Shown here: positions 29,361 to 37,560 of the stretch, piece by piece
Layout: each line of letters starts with the position of its first letter
How positions within the stretch are numbered: position 1 is the first letter of the stretch
Source of the DNA: Gemmatales bacterium
GTDB lineage: Bacteria; Planctomycetota; Planctomycetia; Gemmatales; HRBIN36
Length of the DNA stretch: 64,000 nt
Reading direction: 5' to 3'
Assembly (NCBI GenBank): GCA_025060195.1
Contig: JANXCQ010000008.1
Coordinates: forward strand, 1 to 64,000
Made by a program: the position numbers and the translations under genes
Notes under the pieces: generated by a model
Told to the model about the DNA's origin: nothing
The model's database searches: none
The model's input: the letters and a program-made list of their open reading frames with translations, nothing else

Positions 29361-30056
29361 TCATGACTTAATCAATTCTTGAGCACGTCGGAAAATGCTA
29401 ATTAACATAGTTTCGGTGAGCTTACCTGTAAAGGTATTCTGCTGGCTAGGATGGTAAGAACCGAGCAAGATATAAGGTCCAAGGGCTACTTCGGACCCGT
29501 GGCGAAATCGCGGCCGGGGTCGAACGTGAAAATTCAGTTGTTGCAAGGCACGAAGCACTCCGTTCCAAGCAAATTGACCTAACGCCACTATAAGCCGCAC
29601 CTTCTTCAGTAGGGCCAGTTCGCGGACTAAGTAGGCGAGACATTGGTCCATCTCTTGGGGAGAGGGGCGATTGCCTGGCGGCGCGCAACGCACTATAGCC
29701 GTGATATAACAGCCCCGTAATTGCAAGCCGTCGTCCCGACTCTTAGAAAACGGTTGGCTAGCTAAGCCGGCTTGATAAAGACATCGATAAAGGAAGTCTC
29801 CCGAGCGGTCGCCAGTAAACATGCGACCAGTGCGGTTACCTCCATGCGCTGCAGGCGCCAGTCCGCAGAGCAAAATCTGGGCTTCTAAGTCACCAAACCC
29901 CGGGAGCGGCCTAGCCCAGTAAGTTTCCTGGGCAAAAGCTCGACGGGGTTGGCACGCTACTGCCTCCCGCCACCTCACTAAGCGTGGACAGGCTCGACAG
30001 CCTATCACTTCTCGACAAAGTTGCTCCCAAGCCACTAAGTCCGAATCCTGGCGCAC
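29361..30056 (-). CDS. Type-5 uracil-DNA glycosylase (UdgB-like)
   Basis: CREVIGCRACPRL Fe-S Cys; GLAPAAHGGNRTGRMFTGDRSGDFLYRCLY motif; LLGSYHPSQQNTFTGKL. Confidence 0.9.
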   Translation of the reverse strand: MRQDSDLVAWEQLCREVIGCRACPRLVRWREAVACQPRRAFAQETYWARPLPGFGDLEAQILLCGLAPAAHGGNRTGRMFTGDRSGDFLYRCLYQAGLASQPFSKSRDDGLQLRGCYITAIVRCAPPGNRPSPQEMDQCLAYLVRELALLKKVRLIVALGQFAWNGVLRALQQLNFHVRPRPRFRHGSEVALGPYILLGSYHPSQQNTFTGKLTETMLISIFRRAQELIKS

Positions 30057-30059
30057 GGC

Positions 30060-31376
30060 TCACTCCGACTCCTGTGGCGCCCCTGGAGTTGTTGGGCTAG
30101 GATAGGTTTCGCCTTGCTCAGGAGTTGCCGAAGAGTCATTCACTAAAATTGTTAGTTGCTGGCGTAATGCCTGCTCTAAATTCCACAACTTAAGTGCCAG
30201 ACACAGGCTCCACAAATTAAGAACCATTGGTACTAAGAACAACCCAATCCCCATCCAGGCAAATAATGCTAATCCGCAAAAGGGCAGGGTCAGGCCGCGG
30301 ATGCCTTGAAAAAGAGAAGAAATGCTCTCGTAAAGGGCAGCACGTTCCTTGCGTAAGGCAAAATAAAGATTGCCAGTGGTTTGGGCCACTTCCGAAGCTC
30401 CTAAGACAATACCGCGAAGCACGGCTCCCAACCAGGCCATCAGTAACCAGTTTTTCCAGAAGCTGACAAATAGTGCTCCATAAGCGAAAATACCCATCCA
30501 GGCAAATGCAACGCGACCCGCTACAGGAGAGGTGCGGTCTATAAACAGACCCCACCAGGGCGAGGTGAACGCACCTAATAAAATCGGTAGCACTTGTACT
30601 AAGAGTGTAATTTCCAGTTGGTTTAATCGGAACACCTGATTGAGTAAATAAATCCACAGAGGTCTGCTCATAAGAAAGCCCGCGCCGGTGAGAAATATAG
30701 TACCTTGAAAGAGACGAAACATCTCATCACGGCGTAACACATGCCAAATTTGCTTCGGTGTGGGTAATTCACTAGCTCGGGCGCGCTTATGTGGCAAATC
30801 ATCAGGAATATTCAGGCGTGCGTAGAAAAATAAGCCAAATAGGCCCAGAAGTCCTCCCACGGGATAAATGATTCGATACAGCGCAGGTTTCCAGTCCATG
30901 AGTGCGGCAGCGCCTAAGAGGACGGGAACCGTTACTAAACTTTGAACTAATCGAAGTAGGCCAATAATTCGACCCCGATGGGTGTCGGGATAGGTGTACT
31001 TGTATAAGGCGGGTACCGCTAGACTAAGTGGCCCCGCCAGGAAGTAGTAAAGGGATAACCCAAGGGTAAAAGCTGACGCGCTAGTGATCCAGATGGTGGC
31101 CAGGAAAGGCAGAAGTCGCAGGGCCCCTGAAATGAGCGCCATATACTGTAAGCGTATCAGTCTGGCCCAGGCGGCCCAGACCGGTTGCAAAATCGAACAG
31201 GCAGGGAGCACGGCCACGAGAATCGCTACATGAGTTGCAGTTCCATCGAGCACGTGAACCACTGTTATTTGCGCTAACAGGGCCAAGCCAGACATAATTC
31301 CGGCGCTCACTGCGTAAATCGCTTCGTACATGAGGTTCCTGCGCACTTCGGGAGACAACTCGCTCAGTCCAAACAT
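30060..31376 (-). CDS. MFS-type transporter
   Basis: About 12 hydrophobic segments over 438 aa; MFS-like layout. Confidence 0.75.
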   Translation of the reverse strand: MFGLSELSPEVRRNLMYEAIYAVSAGIMSGLALLAQITVVHVLDGTATHVAILVAVLPACSILQPVWAAWARLIRLQYMALISGALRLLPFLATIWITSASAFTLGLSLYYFLAGPLSLAVPALYKYTYPDTHRGRIIGLLRLVQSLVTVPVLLGAAALMDWKPALYRIIYPVGGLLGLFGLFFYARLNIPDDLPHKRARASELPTPKQIWHVLRRDEMFRLFQGTIFLTGAGFLMSRPLWIYLLNQVFRLNQLEITLLVQVLPILLGAFTSPWWGLFIDRTSPVAGRVAFAWMGIFAYGALFVSFWKNWLLMAWLGAVLRGIVLGASEVAQTTGNLYFALRKERAALYESISSLFQGIRGLTLPFCGLALFAWMGIGLFLVPMVLNLWSLCLALKLWNLEQALRQQLTILVNDSSATPEQGETYPSPTTPGAPQESE

Positions 31377-31382
31377 GGACGG

Positions 31383-33635
31383 CTAAGATGACGACATAGC
31401 GGGGCCATCGAGATGGGGCGCGGAGATGCTGGTATTTATACTAAGCTTGGCCCCTAAGCTCCTGAGAGTTTCTATCAGTTTTTCGAGTGTATGACCGTGA
31501 ATTGCTAAGGTGGTTGGGCCCAGTTTCCGAGCAACATAAGGGGCAGTCTCGGGCCACTGGCACAGCCCGTTAGCAATTGCTTCAGACCCCGTCTCGAGTA
31601 TATAAGTGTGAGTTACCTTCAGCTCAATATGCGGCAGACTGATCAGTGAGATTACAGTGTCTGGGGCGGAAGTGCCGCAACGCAAAAGGAACCATTCTTG
31701 CAAACGTAACGCAGTCCATCCTTGCTGCCGTGCCCGTTGCAGCGAGTTTGGAGTAATCCGATAACGTGCAATCTGGCGCACCGAGTCTATATAAACCTGC
31801 TCAGCCAGTTGCAGCAACTCGGCCTCTAACAAGAGGTTAGCTTGATTGAGGGGGACTTCCAGGGTAACGCCGTCTGATAAGACACGGATTTGGGAAACAG
31901 TTGGCCGCAGGTAGTCCAAACTAGCTGTCACCCGCAAATGGCTATAGTCTATAGCATGAGATGGCTCGATGAGTAAAAATCGATCTCCGATTTTTACTCC
32001 ACTAATCCCGCGGCACAGAGCGGCTTCCCGGTGCTGGGCGCTTTCAAACTCCAGCAGCGTGCCGCGATGATAAACGGTGAGACGTTGCTGTTGCTGCGCT
32101 GAAGTGCCAATCAGGCTTCGCACAGTATCGGGCAGGGGTCGGCTGGAACGTTGCTCCAGCCAGTTGAGCAATTCGCTAGGTTGCCAGCCGGCCTGCAAAG
32201 CCTGGTGTACCATGGAATTATCTATTTCAAGCGTGGCCACCGGACTAATTGTCTTCCAACGAGCTATAGTGCTAAGATCAAGAATATCCTTCGGCGTAAG
32301 AGCTTGGCGATAGGCAATAATTTCCAGATTAGGGAGTACTAGGATATTCGATTGACTTAGTGAATCAAGACTGTAAGGTTGCTGCGAGAATAATGCGCGG
32401 CCTAATGGAGCGAGGCGAAGCAAAGTATGTTCTTCGTTCCAATGCAGGAAACCGAGTGCCCACATGATCCCTAAACAAGCAGACAAAGTGTGAACCGGTA
32501 TAAGCCGAGCGAGTTCGTCAGATTGGATTAGATTAACATCGTAGATTTCATTCGTTTGAACGCACGATGAGAGTTGCCGTAAGGAAATTCCCGCATTTTC
32601 AGGAAGCTGGACCAATATATAGGCGGTGTAGAGACAGGTGAATAACTGTAAAGCCAGAGCAGTGTGGTCAAGTTTGCCAAGGTCTATGGGTGTACTTAGG
32701 GGAGCATAGATATCTAGGAGGTTGTAGAGTAACCAGGCATTCCATACTTTCAGGCAGGCTTCCAACTTAGAGGCAGGAAGGGAACTGGTGCATGGCGCCG
32801 CATACAACGTCCAAGACGTGTAATGAACTTTAAGCAGTCCTAAGAGAGAAGCGAGCGCCACCCAGATGCGTGGATGCACTTGACAGTCAGGTATAGGACA
32901 GTGCCATGGTTCCAATTGCTCGCAGAGTTGTTGACCGTGTTTCTTGTAGGCTTGGCCAGTGCGTTTGATTCTAATGGGGGATTGCAACGCTACTTGTCTT
33001 ACTTTGGTTAATTGAATAAACGCGTCCAGGCCATCGGTTTCCTGGAAACGGTCGGGAAAAGGAACACCATGTAACTTAGTAGAAGCTGCTATATTCCAGG
33101 CTAAGTCAGTTAGATTAGGGTCAACGTAATAATACTTAGTAGCCGGTTGGCTTACATAGTTATTAGAATATTCGATACAGGGTATTAAGTCGATCAAAGA
33201 CTCTTTCTTGGCCTGTCGCGTGCGTAATCGCAGAAAATTCCAGGTCTGCCGGAGCATAACTTGTATGAGCCTTTCTGGTATGAGAGGATAAACGAGCAAT
33301 CGAAGCCAAGAGAAACGGAGCAATTGATACGGCTGTTGCCGGTGTATAGATTTCAGGGCGCGACTGAGAAGTGTTTTGTTGTCCCAGAGATTGAGTATCT
33401 GAGAGTCACAGGAGGAGGCCAACTGCGGATGACGGCGGGAGGACGCCCAAGCTGACCAAGCCTCCACGAGAGCTTGACACTGGTGGGGACCGAGACGCTC
33501 TAGGACACTGGGCCAATTGATCGGCGCGGGCAAGGAGATTTCCGACAACTGCCGAAGTCCATGCTGGAGGCAGTACTCACTAAATAGCTGGAGGGACAAG
33601 TTCGAAGTGGACGAGGCCTCGCGTGATAGGGCCAT
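31383..33635 (-). CDS. Large XPB/Ssl2-associated (helicase-associated domain) protein
   Basis: 750 aa, no helicase motifs; layout resembles the helicase-associated proteins found next to XPB in other bacteria; C-terminal segment resembles the XPB N-terminal domain. Confidence 0.55.
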   Translation of the reverse strand: MALSREASSTSNLSLQLFSEYCLQHGLRQLSEISLPAPINWPSVLERLGPHQCQALVEAWSAWASSRRHPQLASSCDSQILNLWDNKTLLSRALKSIHRQQPYQLLRFSWLRLLVYPLIPERLIQVMLRQTWNFLRLRTRQAKKESLIDLIPCIEYSNNYVSQPATKYYYVDPNLTDLAWNIAASTKLHGVPFPDRFQETDGLDAFIQLTKVRQVALQSPIRIKRTGQAYKKHGQQLCEQLEPWHCPIPDCQVHPRIWVALASLLGLLKVHYTSWTLYAAPCTSSLPASKLEACLKVWNAWLLYNLLDIYAPLSTPIDLGKLDHTALALQLFTCLYTAYILVQLPENAGISLRQLSSCVQTNEIYDVNLIQSDELARLIPVHTLSACLGIMWALGFLHWNEEHTLLRLAPLGRALFSQQPYSLDSLSQSNILVLPNLEIIAYRQALTPKDILDLSTIARWKTISPVATLEIDNSMVHQALQAGWQPSELLNWLEQRSSRPLPDTVRSLIGTSAQQQQRLTVYHRGTLLEFESAQHREAALCRGISGVKIGDRFLLIEPSHAIDYSHLRVTASLDYLRPTVSQIRVLSDGVTLEVPLNQANLLLEAELLQLAEQVYIDSVRQIARYRITPNSLQRARQQGWTALRLQEWFLLRCGTSAPDTVISLISLPHIELKVTHTYILETGSEAIANGLCQWPETAPYVARKLGPTTLAIHGHTLEKLIETLRSLGAKLSINTSISAPHLDGPAMSSS

Positions 33636-33638
33636 GGC

Positions 33639-33923
33639 TTATTGCTCTGCCGAACCAGTGGCTGCGCCCCTGAGCTCATCGACTGGAGAGACCACTCGAG
33701 GCAAATACCCGGCTTCTCTCAGGGCCTTAATCAGGTCGCCGACCTTCTGAGGAATGACCAACAGGGCATTATCGGCTAGCCGTAGGGCCAAATAGGGAGC
33801 TACCTTAGGCGAGCGCAACAATTCCGTGGCTAGATAAGCATCTTCCGCCACTACTATTTCCACGTTGCGATGGATACGCACTGGAATGCGCGATTGGGAC
33901 CTCTCCGAAGCACTGGGCATCAT
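33639..33923 (-). CDS. Small stand-alone XPB N-terminal-domain-like protein
   Basis: 94 aa VRIHRNVEIVVAEDAYLATELLRSPKVAPYLALRLADNALLVIPQKVGDLIKALREAGYLPR; resembles residues just upstream of the helicase core in the adjacent XPB; 4-nt overlap with XPB. Confidence 0.6.
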   Translation of the reverse strand: MMPSASERSQSRIPVRIHRNVEIVVAEDAYLATELLRSPKVAPYLALRLADNALLVIPQKVGDLIKALREAGYLPRVVSPVDELRGAATGSAEQ

Positions 33924-35635
33924 GCAGCGCCGACTCCTACGATGCTATGATTTGGACTTGAGAGTTCATCGGCATCCAAAATTTGATAAGTGTATCCTTG
34001 TTCAGTTAGAAAGAGTTGGCGATGCTGGGCAAATTCCATTTCTTTCGTATCGCGAGTTACTAAAGTATAGAAGCGTGCGCGGATTCCGTTGGGTTTGGGT
34101 CGGAGAATACGGCCGAGCCGTTGGGCTTCTTCTTGTCGCGAGCCGAAGGTGCCGCTCACCTGAATCAATACATTTGCGTCGGGCAGGTCAATGGCGAAAT
34201 TGCCCACCTTGGATAACACTAACCGTGGGAGTTTTCCCTCTCGAAAGGCTTGATAGAGCCGTTCACGTTCCGCGGTTGGTGTGCTGCCGGTGATGAGCGG
34301 TATGCGGAAGCGGTCGCGGATTTGCCGCAGTTGGCTCAGATATTGGCCAATGATAAGAACTTGATCCCCAGCATGGCGCTCTAAGAGCTTAGCAATGATA
34401 TCTAACTTAGCGGGGTTTTCGCTGGCGAGTCGGTATTTGTGGCGCGGTTCGGCCAGGGCGTATTCCATACGCCAATCTTCCACTAGCCGCACGCGGATTT
34501 CATAACACTGCGCTTCGGCAATCCAACCCTGGGTTTCCAGTTCGCGCCAAGGGACATCATACTTCTTAGGGCCTATTAACGAAAAAACATCGGCCTCGCG
34601 GCCGTCTTCGCGGACTAAAGTAGCAGTCAGGCCCAGTCGACGACGAGCCTGGATTTGGGCTGTGATCCGAAATACCGGAGCAGGAAGTAAGTGGACTTCG
34701 TCATAAATAATCAGGCCCCAGTCTTGCTGGTCAAAAATGCGGAAATGTGGGAATTCCTCGCTTTTTTCAGGACGATAAGTCAGGATGTTATAAGTGGCGA
34801 GCGTGACGGGGCCTAATTTCTTTGATTCGCCTGTATACTCGGCAATTTCCTGATCCGTAAGAGAAGTTTTATCTAACAATTCGCGACGCCATTGCTTCAC
34901 GGCGGAGATGCTGGTGGTCAGGACTAAGGTTTGGCGTTGGAGAAGTGCCATTACGGCTAATCCGACTATGGTCTTACCAGCTCCGCATGGCAGAACAATC
35001 ACGCCGCTACCGCCTCGCACGTCGCCGCCGGCGTAGAAAATCTCTGCGGCCTGTTTCTGGTAGGGCCGTAGTTGAAACGGGCGACCACTAAGTGTAGTTT
35101 CACGTAAGCGAATGTCTAAGAACGCGCCGGGGGTATATCCTGCTAAGTCCTCGGCTGGATAGCCGACGCTAATCAGCGCTTGTTTGATAAGCCCGCGATG
35201 CGCTGTGGGAACGCGAAACTCGTTAGCGGTTAATCGTTCTCCCAGGTATTGCCGCACCGCGGGATGACGCGCTAACTCTTCTAGTAACGGTCGGTCTGGA
35301 CAAACTAATCTCAGGCCCTGTTCGTCTTTTTCCAAGCGAACGCGGCCATAGCGGCTGACGATGTCTGGGATGTCGCGAATGATGTTGGCAGGAACGGGGT
35401 ACTTGCTATAGCGTTGCAGCACGTCGAGCATGGCTTGGGCCGTCATGCCCGCGGCCGCGGCGTTCCATAGCGAAAGTTCCGTCAACCGGTACGTGTGAAT
35501 GTGTTCGGGGCTGCGGATGAGTTCCGCAAAAGGGGCGAGGGCGTCCCGCACTTCGGGGTACAGAGGGTTGTCCACCTCGAGTAGCAGCGTGCGGTCGCTC
35601 TGCACGACCAGAGGGTTGTTGAGGTTGGTACCCAT
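33920..35635 (-). CDS. XPB/Ssl2-family DNA repair helicase (SF2)
   Basis: VLPCGAGKTIVGLAVM Walker A, IYDEVHLLP DEVH box, TATLVREDG; RLGRILRPK motif VI. Confidence 0.93.
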   Translation of the reverse strand: MGTNLNNPLVVQSDRTLLLEVDNPLYPEVRDALAPFAELIRSPEHIHTYRLTELSLWNAAAAGMTAQAMLDVLQRYSKYPVPANIIRDIPDIVSRYGRVRLEKDEQGLRLVCPDRPLLEELARHPAVRQYLGERLTANEFRVPTAHRGLIKQALISVGYPAEDLAGYTPGAFLDIRLRETTLSGRPFQLRPYQKQAAEIFYAGGDVRGGSGVIVLPCGAGKTIVGLAVMALLQRQTLVLTTSISAVKQWRRELLDKTSLTDQEIAEYTGESKKLGPVTLATYNILTYRPEKSEEFPHFRIFDQQDWGLIIYDEVHLLPAPVFRITAQIQARRRLGLTATLVREDGREADVFSLIGPKKYDVPWRELETQGWIAEAQCYEIRVRLVEDWRMEYALAEPRHKYRLASENPAKLDIIAKLLERHAGDQVLIIGQYLSQLRQIRDRFRIPLITGSTPTAERERLYQAFREGKLPRLVLSKVGNFAIDLPDANVLIQVSGTFGSRQEEAQRLGRILRPKPNGIRARFYTLVTRDTKEMEFAQHRQLFLTEQGYTYQILDADELSSPNHSIVGVGAA

Positions 35636-36009
35636 AGTGTCCTCGCAAATTCGGACAATTCGGAACATTCTATCTTAGCAAACAGCTACGACGTTTACAA
35701 TTTCGCCTCAGGCGGCTTGGTCGCGAGTTTTTCAGTAGCAAGGCACTGAAATAAGAACGCCCTTCATGGGCGGGAAACAGATGAGCCAGTCTTTCAGCCC
35801 TGTAGGAGCGATAAGGTCACGCAGCTGGAGCGATAACTTGGCCTGATGGAGCGGAAACCTTAGAAGTCCATCTCGGGCTTCAGCTCCCTGCGAGTCGAAT
35901 GGCGTTTCTCGCCGCGCAAGTTTCAGTGTGTATATTAACACTGCGGCGGCGTCGGCAGGGTGAGACGCGCAGTAGCCGAGAGTTATTAGGCAGAAGGGGA
36001 GGTCGGTCC

Positions 36010-37560
36010 ATGGCGCGGATGGAAAGCAGTCGGGGTTTGACGGCGTGGACGAGGCGGGAGTTTCTGGGACAAGCGGCCGCGGGTAGCCTGGTGGGAATGA
36101 CCTTCCTGCATCGGTTGCCGAGTGTTGCTGCGGCGCAGACGCAGGTGGCGCGGCTCATGGTGCAGTATCCTCAAGAAATTGAGCCGCTGGTTCGGCTTAT
36201 CGAGGAAACGCCGCGCGAGCGCTTATTGGAGGCAGTTGCGCAGCGCATTCGCGCAGGCACGAGTTACCAGCAGCTCCTGGCTGCGTTGATGTTAGCTGGA
36301 GTGCGGGGCATCCAACCGCGCCCTGTGGGATTCAAATTCCACGCGGTGCTGGTGGTCAATTCCGCTCATTTGGCGGCGATAGCGGCAGCAGACCGTGATC
36401 GCTGGCTCCCGCTGTTCTGGGCGTTGGATTATTTCAAGACGGCTCAGGAACGTAACCGCGTCGAGGGGGATTGGCGGTTACCACCACCGGCCGAGGACCA
36501 TCTACCTGCGCCGACCCGAGCAAAGGCCGAGTTTCTGGAGGCCATGGAGGCGTGGGACGAGGAACGGGCCGATCGCGCTATTACCGCGTTAGCTCGTAGT
36601 GCGGGACAGGCGGAGATTAGCGAATGTTTCTGGCGTTTGGCGGTACGGGATTTCCGCGACATCGGGCACAAGATTATCTACGCCGCGAATGCCTGGCGAA
36701 CCTTGCAGGTGATCGGCTGGCGCTGTGCCGAGCCGGTGCTGCGTTCGTTGGCCTATGCGTTGCTTGACCGCGGGCGGGATGGTGGAAATCCAGCCCAAAA
36801 TGATTTTCCCGCAGATCGCCCGGGCCGAGCTAATTGGAAACGAATCCGCGAAATTCGCGACGGTTGGCATACAGGCAAAGCGGATGCGAAAGCGGCGGCC
36901 GAACTGGTGGAGGCGCTTCGTACGGCCAGTCCCGATGAGGCCAGTGCTCAGGTGGTGCGCTTGCTCAACGCGGGAGTGAGTCCGCAGTCGGTCTATGACG
37001 GTTTGTTCCTAGCTGCAGGGGAATGGCTGGCGCGTCAGCCGGGAATCGTCGGCTTGCATTGTGTTACCATGACCAATGCCATGCACTTCGCGTTTCAGAA
37101 TAGTGGTGTGGATGAACATCGGCGTTACATTTTGCTCCAGAATGCTGCTTTCCTGGCGATGTTCCGCGATACCATGCGGCAACGGGGTAAGCTCAATGAA
37201 ACCTTGCGTCTGGATCAATTGGAGCCTGCGCCATCTGAAAAAACAGGCTCGGCCGCAGTTGAGGAGATTTTCGACCTGGTGGGTAGGGATACGCTCCTGG
37301 CAGCGCGAAAGACACTTGCGGCGTTGCAACAAGGGACAGTCGATCCTGCGGCGCTGATGGCCGAAGCGCGACGGTTGATTTTCGCCAAGGGCTTTGATTC
37401 CCACGATTATAAGTTCAGCTCTGCTGCCTTGGAGGACTTTTATCATACGAGTCCGGCCTGGCGAAACCGTTTCTTAGCCGCGGCTATGTTCAACCTCAAA
37501 GGTACGAGCCATCGGGATAACCAACTCATTCAGCGGGCTAGAGCCGCATTGGGTGCATAA
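36010..37560 (+). CDS. Tat-exported hypothetical protein
   Basis: TRREFLGQAAAGSLVGMTFLHRLPSVAAA twin-arginine signal; long ORF; ATG at 36010. Confidence 0.7.
   Translation: MARMESSRGLTAWTRREFLGQAAAGSLVGMTFLHRLPSVAAAQTQVARLMVQYPQEIEPLVRLIEETPRERLLEAVAQRIRAGTSYQQLLAALMLAGVRGIQPRPVGFKFHAVLVVNSAHLAAIAAADRDRWLPLFWALDYFKTAQERNRVEGDWRLPPPAEDHLPAPTRAKAEFLEAMEAWDEERADRAITALARSAGQAEISECFWRLAVRDFRDIGHKIIYAANAWRTLQVIGWRCAEPVLRSLAYALLDRGRDGGNPAQNDFPADRPGRANWKRIREIRDGWHTGKADAKAAAELVEALRTASPDEASAQVVRLLNAGVSPQSVYDGLFLAAGEWLARQPGIVGLHCVTMTNAMHFAFQNSGVDEHRRYILLQNAAFLAMFRDTMRQRGKLNETLRLDQLEPAPSEKTGSAAVEEIFDLVGRDTLLAARKTLAALQQGTVDPAALMAEARRLIFAKGFDSHDYKFSSAALEDFYHTSPAWRNRFLAAAMFNLKGTSHRDNQLIQRARAALGA

Follow-up and report, generated by a model that had tools for sequence, protein, structure and literature searches.

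The question raised by this locus is what a protein of 94 residues, encoded between the gene for an XPB helicase and that for a protein of 750 residues, might contribute to its neighbours. Within the window (the whole stretch of 64,000 nucleotides that was analysed) the three genes follow each other on the minus strand in the order XPB (35668–33920), 94-aa gene (33923–33639) and 750-aa gene (33635–31383). The 94-aa gene overlaps the 3' end of the XPB gene by 4 bp, and the 750-aa gene begins 3 bp after the 94-aa gene. The initial annotation had proposed that one small domain appears three times in these proteins, the 94-aa protein being a stand-alone copy that perhaps regulates the helicase or dimerises with it.

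The three genes and their shared domain

The XPB gene (33920–35668, minus strand, as for all features of the three genes) encodes 582 residues with the start as called; comparison with relatives points to one about 11 codons further downstream. Judged by its sequence, the product is a certain member of the XPB/ERCC3 family: it reaches 879 bits with the NCBIfam model repair_heli_XPB (NF045503, cut-off 610 bits), and both helicase domains (PF16203 and PF04851) are present. It also contains a single PF13625 match (residues 20–146, 35231–35611; Pfam 139 bits), the first half of which can be aligned with the NTD of XPB from yeast and from human. In the 750-aa protein (31383–33635), referred to below as the large protein, Pfam detects PF13625 in two stretches, the best of them at residues 602–703. 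This stretch belongs to module B (approximately residues 582–735, 31431–31892), which is preceded by a module A (approximately residues 430–565, 31941–32348) and by an N-terminal part predicted to be mostly helical (residues 1–425, 32361–33635).

The three segments that had been picked out by eye are residues 110–173 of XPB (35150–35341), residues 15–76 of the 94-aa protein (33696–33881) and residues 670–732 of the large protein (31440–31628), the last with the element order b-a-b-b-a in the predicted model. In an alignment with human XPB, the XPB segment lies after the NTD and before the first RecA domain, a stretch termed DRD-like (PMC6422496). When the 94-aa protein was used as a single sequence to search the whole 3.9-Mb genome, the only matches at E ≤ 10 besides itself were the segments of XPB and of the large protein (E 0.26 and 0.29, both in register); in relatives, single-sequence matches reach E 3e-5.

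Family profiles for XPB, the small and the large protein were built from relatives and compared by hhalign. The small family matches the XPB N-terminal region with 75% (residues 24–76 of the small protein on 121–173 of XPB, 36% identity) and module B of the large protein with 89–94%. XPB and module B match each other over about 150 columns with 95–96%, and the two modules of the large protein match with 92%. The N-terminal part of the large protein and the XPB helicase core, taken as negative controls, stayed below 4%, and none of 150 column-shuffled small-family profiles reached the real score. On account of these probabilities, controls and shuffles, we regard the domain shared by the three protein sequences as real. 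The HMM-HMM comparison named as a check in the initial annotation thus gave a positive and specific answer: the three segments align in the proposed register, and the 94-aa protein is borne out as a stand-alone copy of a domain found in both neighbours. Two points have to be amended. All three named copies stand, but the total is four, a diverged and partial copy in module A having been missed. Further, the segment is a small domain of its own in the 94-aa protein, whereas in XPB and the large protein it forms only the second half of the longer PF13625 module.

Relation of the large protein to p52/Tfb2

A profile of the large family, made from 53 large proteins, was searched against all PDB sequences. 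Its best matches were Tfb2 of yeast, at E 0.0021, and p52 of human, at E 0.04; on Tfb2 it covers the clutch (338–408), followed by the beginning of the p8-binding domain (432–468). Compared by hhalign with p52 from human, yeast and Chaetomium, module A matched with 97% (E 9.7e-11), its clutch-like half and its p52-CTD-like half being aligned with the clutch and the C-terminal domain in order, and none of 60 shuffles came near the real score. The domain order used as the criterion for p52/Tfb2 (GTF2H4), a clutch followed by the p8-binding C-terminal domain, is therefore found in module A.

An AlphaFold2 model of the large protein (pLDDT 76, with most of modules A and B above 80) was compared by Foldseek with 350,542 chains. 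The best 19 were all p52/Tfb2, with E-values from 3.9e-8 to 4.5e-4, probability 1.00 and alignments of 366–556 columns, which also cover part of the N-terminal region. XPB chains came after these, and later Tfb5 (3dom_B, TM 0.71 of the target). The global TM-score to p52 is low (0.2–0.36), so that similar domains have a different arrangement in the model.

The large protein of the window does not match Pfam Tfb2 (PF03849, gathering score 34.5 bits), and that of a relative (L147:8744-11011) reaches 37.5 bits against 34.5, but as a sum over two stretches. At E ≤ 0.01 the Tfb2 model matched 12 of 294 Planctomycetota genomes, mostly in large genes as judged by comparison with the large-family search, and none of 14 control genomes. 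The Tfb2_C model gave 31 matches over 41 whole genomes; at least 13 of them lie in the large gene, at about residues 470–530 wherever the full gene is present. Shorter large proteins of 570 residues, taken alone (six sequences), gave 7.8% with p52 in hhalign. Taken together, profile and fold make a strong case for the large protein as a p52 homologue outside the Pfam family as defined.

The small protein compared with p8/Tfb5

Members of the small family are about 70–100 residues long in Gemmatales relatives and 65 residues long in another family. In searches of PDB sequences, the five best matches of the small family were Tfb5, the yeast p8, with E 0.042 for a profile of 20 sequences and E 0.007 for one of 60. 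The predicted model of the 94-aa protein (33639–33923) has the element order b-a-b-b-a at low confidence (pLDDT 62); its four best Foldseek matches were Tfb5 chains, with an E-value (0.23) not significant by itself. Direct comparison with three eukaryotic p8 sequences was weak (hhalign 6.5%), and 2 of 250 shuffles reached the score. The corresponding half of module B in the large protein scored higher against eukaryotic p8 (24%, 0 of 250 shuffles). The gathering score of Pfam Tfb5 (p8/TTDA, GTF2H5; PF06331) was reached by the small gene neither in its own genome nor over 61 genomes, where two weak matches of this model (E about 2) fall in the C-terminus of the large protein. When Gemmatales small proteins were mixed with those of the other family, the ribosomal protein uS15 (a short match) ranked above Tfb5; E-values near 0.005 from such short profiles are thus not decisive alone, and it is the p52 result that carries the argument. 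The 65-aa family by itself gave nothing against p8 (hhalign 0.1%). Scans with Pfam and NCBIfam also brought up DUF1455 and RNA polymerase subunit L for the small protein; both were below threshold and were rejected as unrelated. Since the direct comparison is weak, the Pfam cut-off is not reached and half-module B scores higher, we call the small protein p8-like in profile and fold and no more: the relation is weaker than that of the large protein to p52, and orthology to p8 is not proven.

The small gene was found in 59 of 61 genomes, that of the window included. Among 69 loci whose genome records are named, in almost every case as Planctomycetota or members of this phylum, 55 contain all three genes, in every case in the order XPB–small–large on one strand, and a 4-bp overlap is the commonest junction. 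When 294 Planctomycetota genomes were sampled evenly, the large family was found in 127 and, at that search sensitivity, the small family in 12; a second look within one class recovered the small gene in 16 of 20 genomes. Three further families likewise have the small gene between XPB and the large gene or, at a contig end, directly before the large gene; in one of the three it encodes 65 residues and overlaps XPB. In many Planctomycetota families (loci L178, L180, L184, L186, L190 and L195) the XPB and p52-like genes are adjacent or overlapping, with no small gene recognised between them. The XPB–large pair is for this reason the wider unit, and the small gene is an extra member in some lineages. 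The 65-aa version was seen directly after XPB at L143:9039-9233, L145:8806-9000 and L189:6489-6683, its size being near that of human p8 (71 aa); at L143 and L189 it is followed by a shorter large protein of about 570–620 residues.

These data bear on how the small protein arose. The second half of PF13625 in the large protein (or in XPB) may have been duplicated into a free gene within the Planctomycetota, which would make the small protein p8-like by convergence and not an orthologue of p8. We hold the chances of such an independent bacterial origin to be evenly balanced. It would account for the small protein being nearer to module B and to XPB than to eukaryotic p8, and for the many families which have the pair alone. 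Yet Tfb5 is still the best match of the small family among all PDB sequences, the small gene occupies the same place in several families, and the gap in scores partly reflects profile depth, as the p8 comparison used only three eukaryotic sequences.

A putative bacterial XPB-p52-p8-like module

In eukaryotes, p52 and p8 pair through homologous domains and regulate XPB (PMC6422496, PMC9557730, PMC7708078); together they activate the ATPase of XPB and set an upper limit to it, with p8 in contact with the ThM motif (PMC7708078). Given this pairing, the p52 matches of the large protein in profile and fold, Tfb5 as the best match of the small protein and the conserved gene order, we think it likely that this gene trio specifies a bacterial XPB-p52-p8-like module, corresponding to the lobe of eukaryotic TFIIH that anchors XPB. 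In this reading the large protein is a p52/Tfb2 homologue carrying two clutch-type modules, one of which may pair, face to face, with its homologue at the N-terminus of XPB and so dock the helicase, while the small p8-like protein would pair with a p8-type half-module of the large protein. Such a trio could keep the RecA domains of XPB in place and govern the rate of its ATPase or translocase on DNA, most probably for the opening of damaged DNA. From the analogy with TFIIH we infer the physical assembly, the partners of each half-module, the regulation of XPB and the role in repair; this pairing scheme is the most parsimonious, because the bacterial proteins have a set of homologous domains that matches TFIIH. 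That the small protein regulates the helicase or dimerises with it, as suggested earlier, is plausible. The comparison suggests, however, that the direct partner of the 94-aa protein is the large p52-like protein, and that XPB may be contacted or regulated through it.

It seems unlikely that the small protein dispenses with a pair of the p52-p8 type and targets XPB or DNA by itself, for instance as a free damage-recognition-like domain or by competing with the homologous XPB segment. The DRD-like position of that segment would fit such a role, as would the basic character of many family members (RIPVKLHRRV), but a p52-like gene is constantly found in the neighbourhood, and in TFIIH it is p52 with which p8 pairs. 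That the similarity of the segments is due to chance or low complexity in short alpha/beta stretches is highly improbable and was rejected by shuffles and synteny: the domain is short and its single-sequence scores in the window's own genome are weak (E about 0.3), but the only other matches genome-wide are the two neighbours, the shuffled profiles all fell short, and matches in relatives are far stronger.

For the reading as an XPB-p52-p8-like module, one of the closest known systems is XPB-p52-p8 (Ssl2-Tfb2-Tfb5) of eukaryotic TFIIH. In both, the N-terminal domain of XPB is homologous, a p52-like protein combines a clutch with a p8-type C-terminal half, and a small p8-like protein stands by itself. 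The bacterial system differs in that its three genes are adjacent, its large protein is longer and has two modules, and its small protein falls below the Pfam Tfb5 cut-off. Models for p44 (Ssl1, PF04056) and p34 (Tfb4, PF03850) found no match at E ≤ 0.01 in the genome of the window (assembly 93% complete; the p34 search had no positive control), and on these searches the trio would be a submodule of TFIIH at most, not TFIIH.

Two other known systems can be compared. XPB of Mycobacterium tuberculosis, likewise bacterial and equipped with an N-terminal domain, is a helicase of 3'-5' polarity whose ATPase is DNA-dependent, but it has been studied as a lone enzyme (PMC3353954). Archaeal XPB-Bax1 also joins XPB to a regulatory partner (PMC7672443, PMC13024598). 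Bax1, however, is a nuclease which binds the thumb and the second helicase domain of XPB, whereas the planctomycete large protein matches p52; Bax1 was not among the PDB matches listed for it by sequence profile or Foldseek.

According to the 2012 study of mycobacterial XPB, no homologues of p44 or p52 had at that time been identified in bacteria, and XPB there was not thought to be part of a TFIIH-like complex (PMC3353954); a 2026 review calls the role of XPB in bacteria and archaea elusive (PMC13024598). A search of the open-licence literature brought up no report since then of a p52, a p8 or a TFIIH-like module from bacteria. The p52-like and p8-like genes beside XPB would give the bacterial helicase its partners, and this part of the human machinery for transcription and DNA repair may be matched in bacteria. 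If so, the origin of the XPB-p52-p8 part of TFIIH becomes testable, and a simple three-protein system would be at hand for the XPB-p52-p8 regulation, which is impaired in xeroderma pigmentosum and trichothiodystrophy. More tentatively, and with somewhat less than even confidence, the submodule may have been present in bacteria as an operon of three genes, either earlier than eukaryotic TFIIH or independently of it; p52 and p8 would then have true bacterial homologues, and the lobe would have been inherited or acquired as a unit.

On the same strand after the large gene, with gaps of 3–6 bp, follow a gene of the uracil-DNA glycosylase (UDG) superfamily and one for an MFS transporter (29361–31376, minus strand). 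Both were rejected as parts of the system, the UDG gene being found at none of the other loci compared and the MFS gene only at a locus of the same genus, where the contig ends inside it. Upstream of XPB lies a divergent gene of 553 codons (35899–37560, plus strand); its product has no Pfam match at E ≤ 0.001, and it was otherwise seen only at the locus of the same genus.
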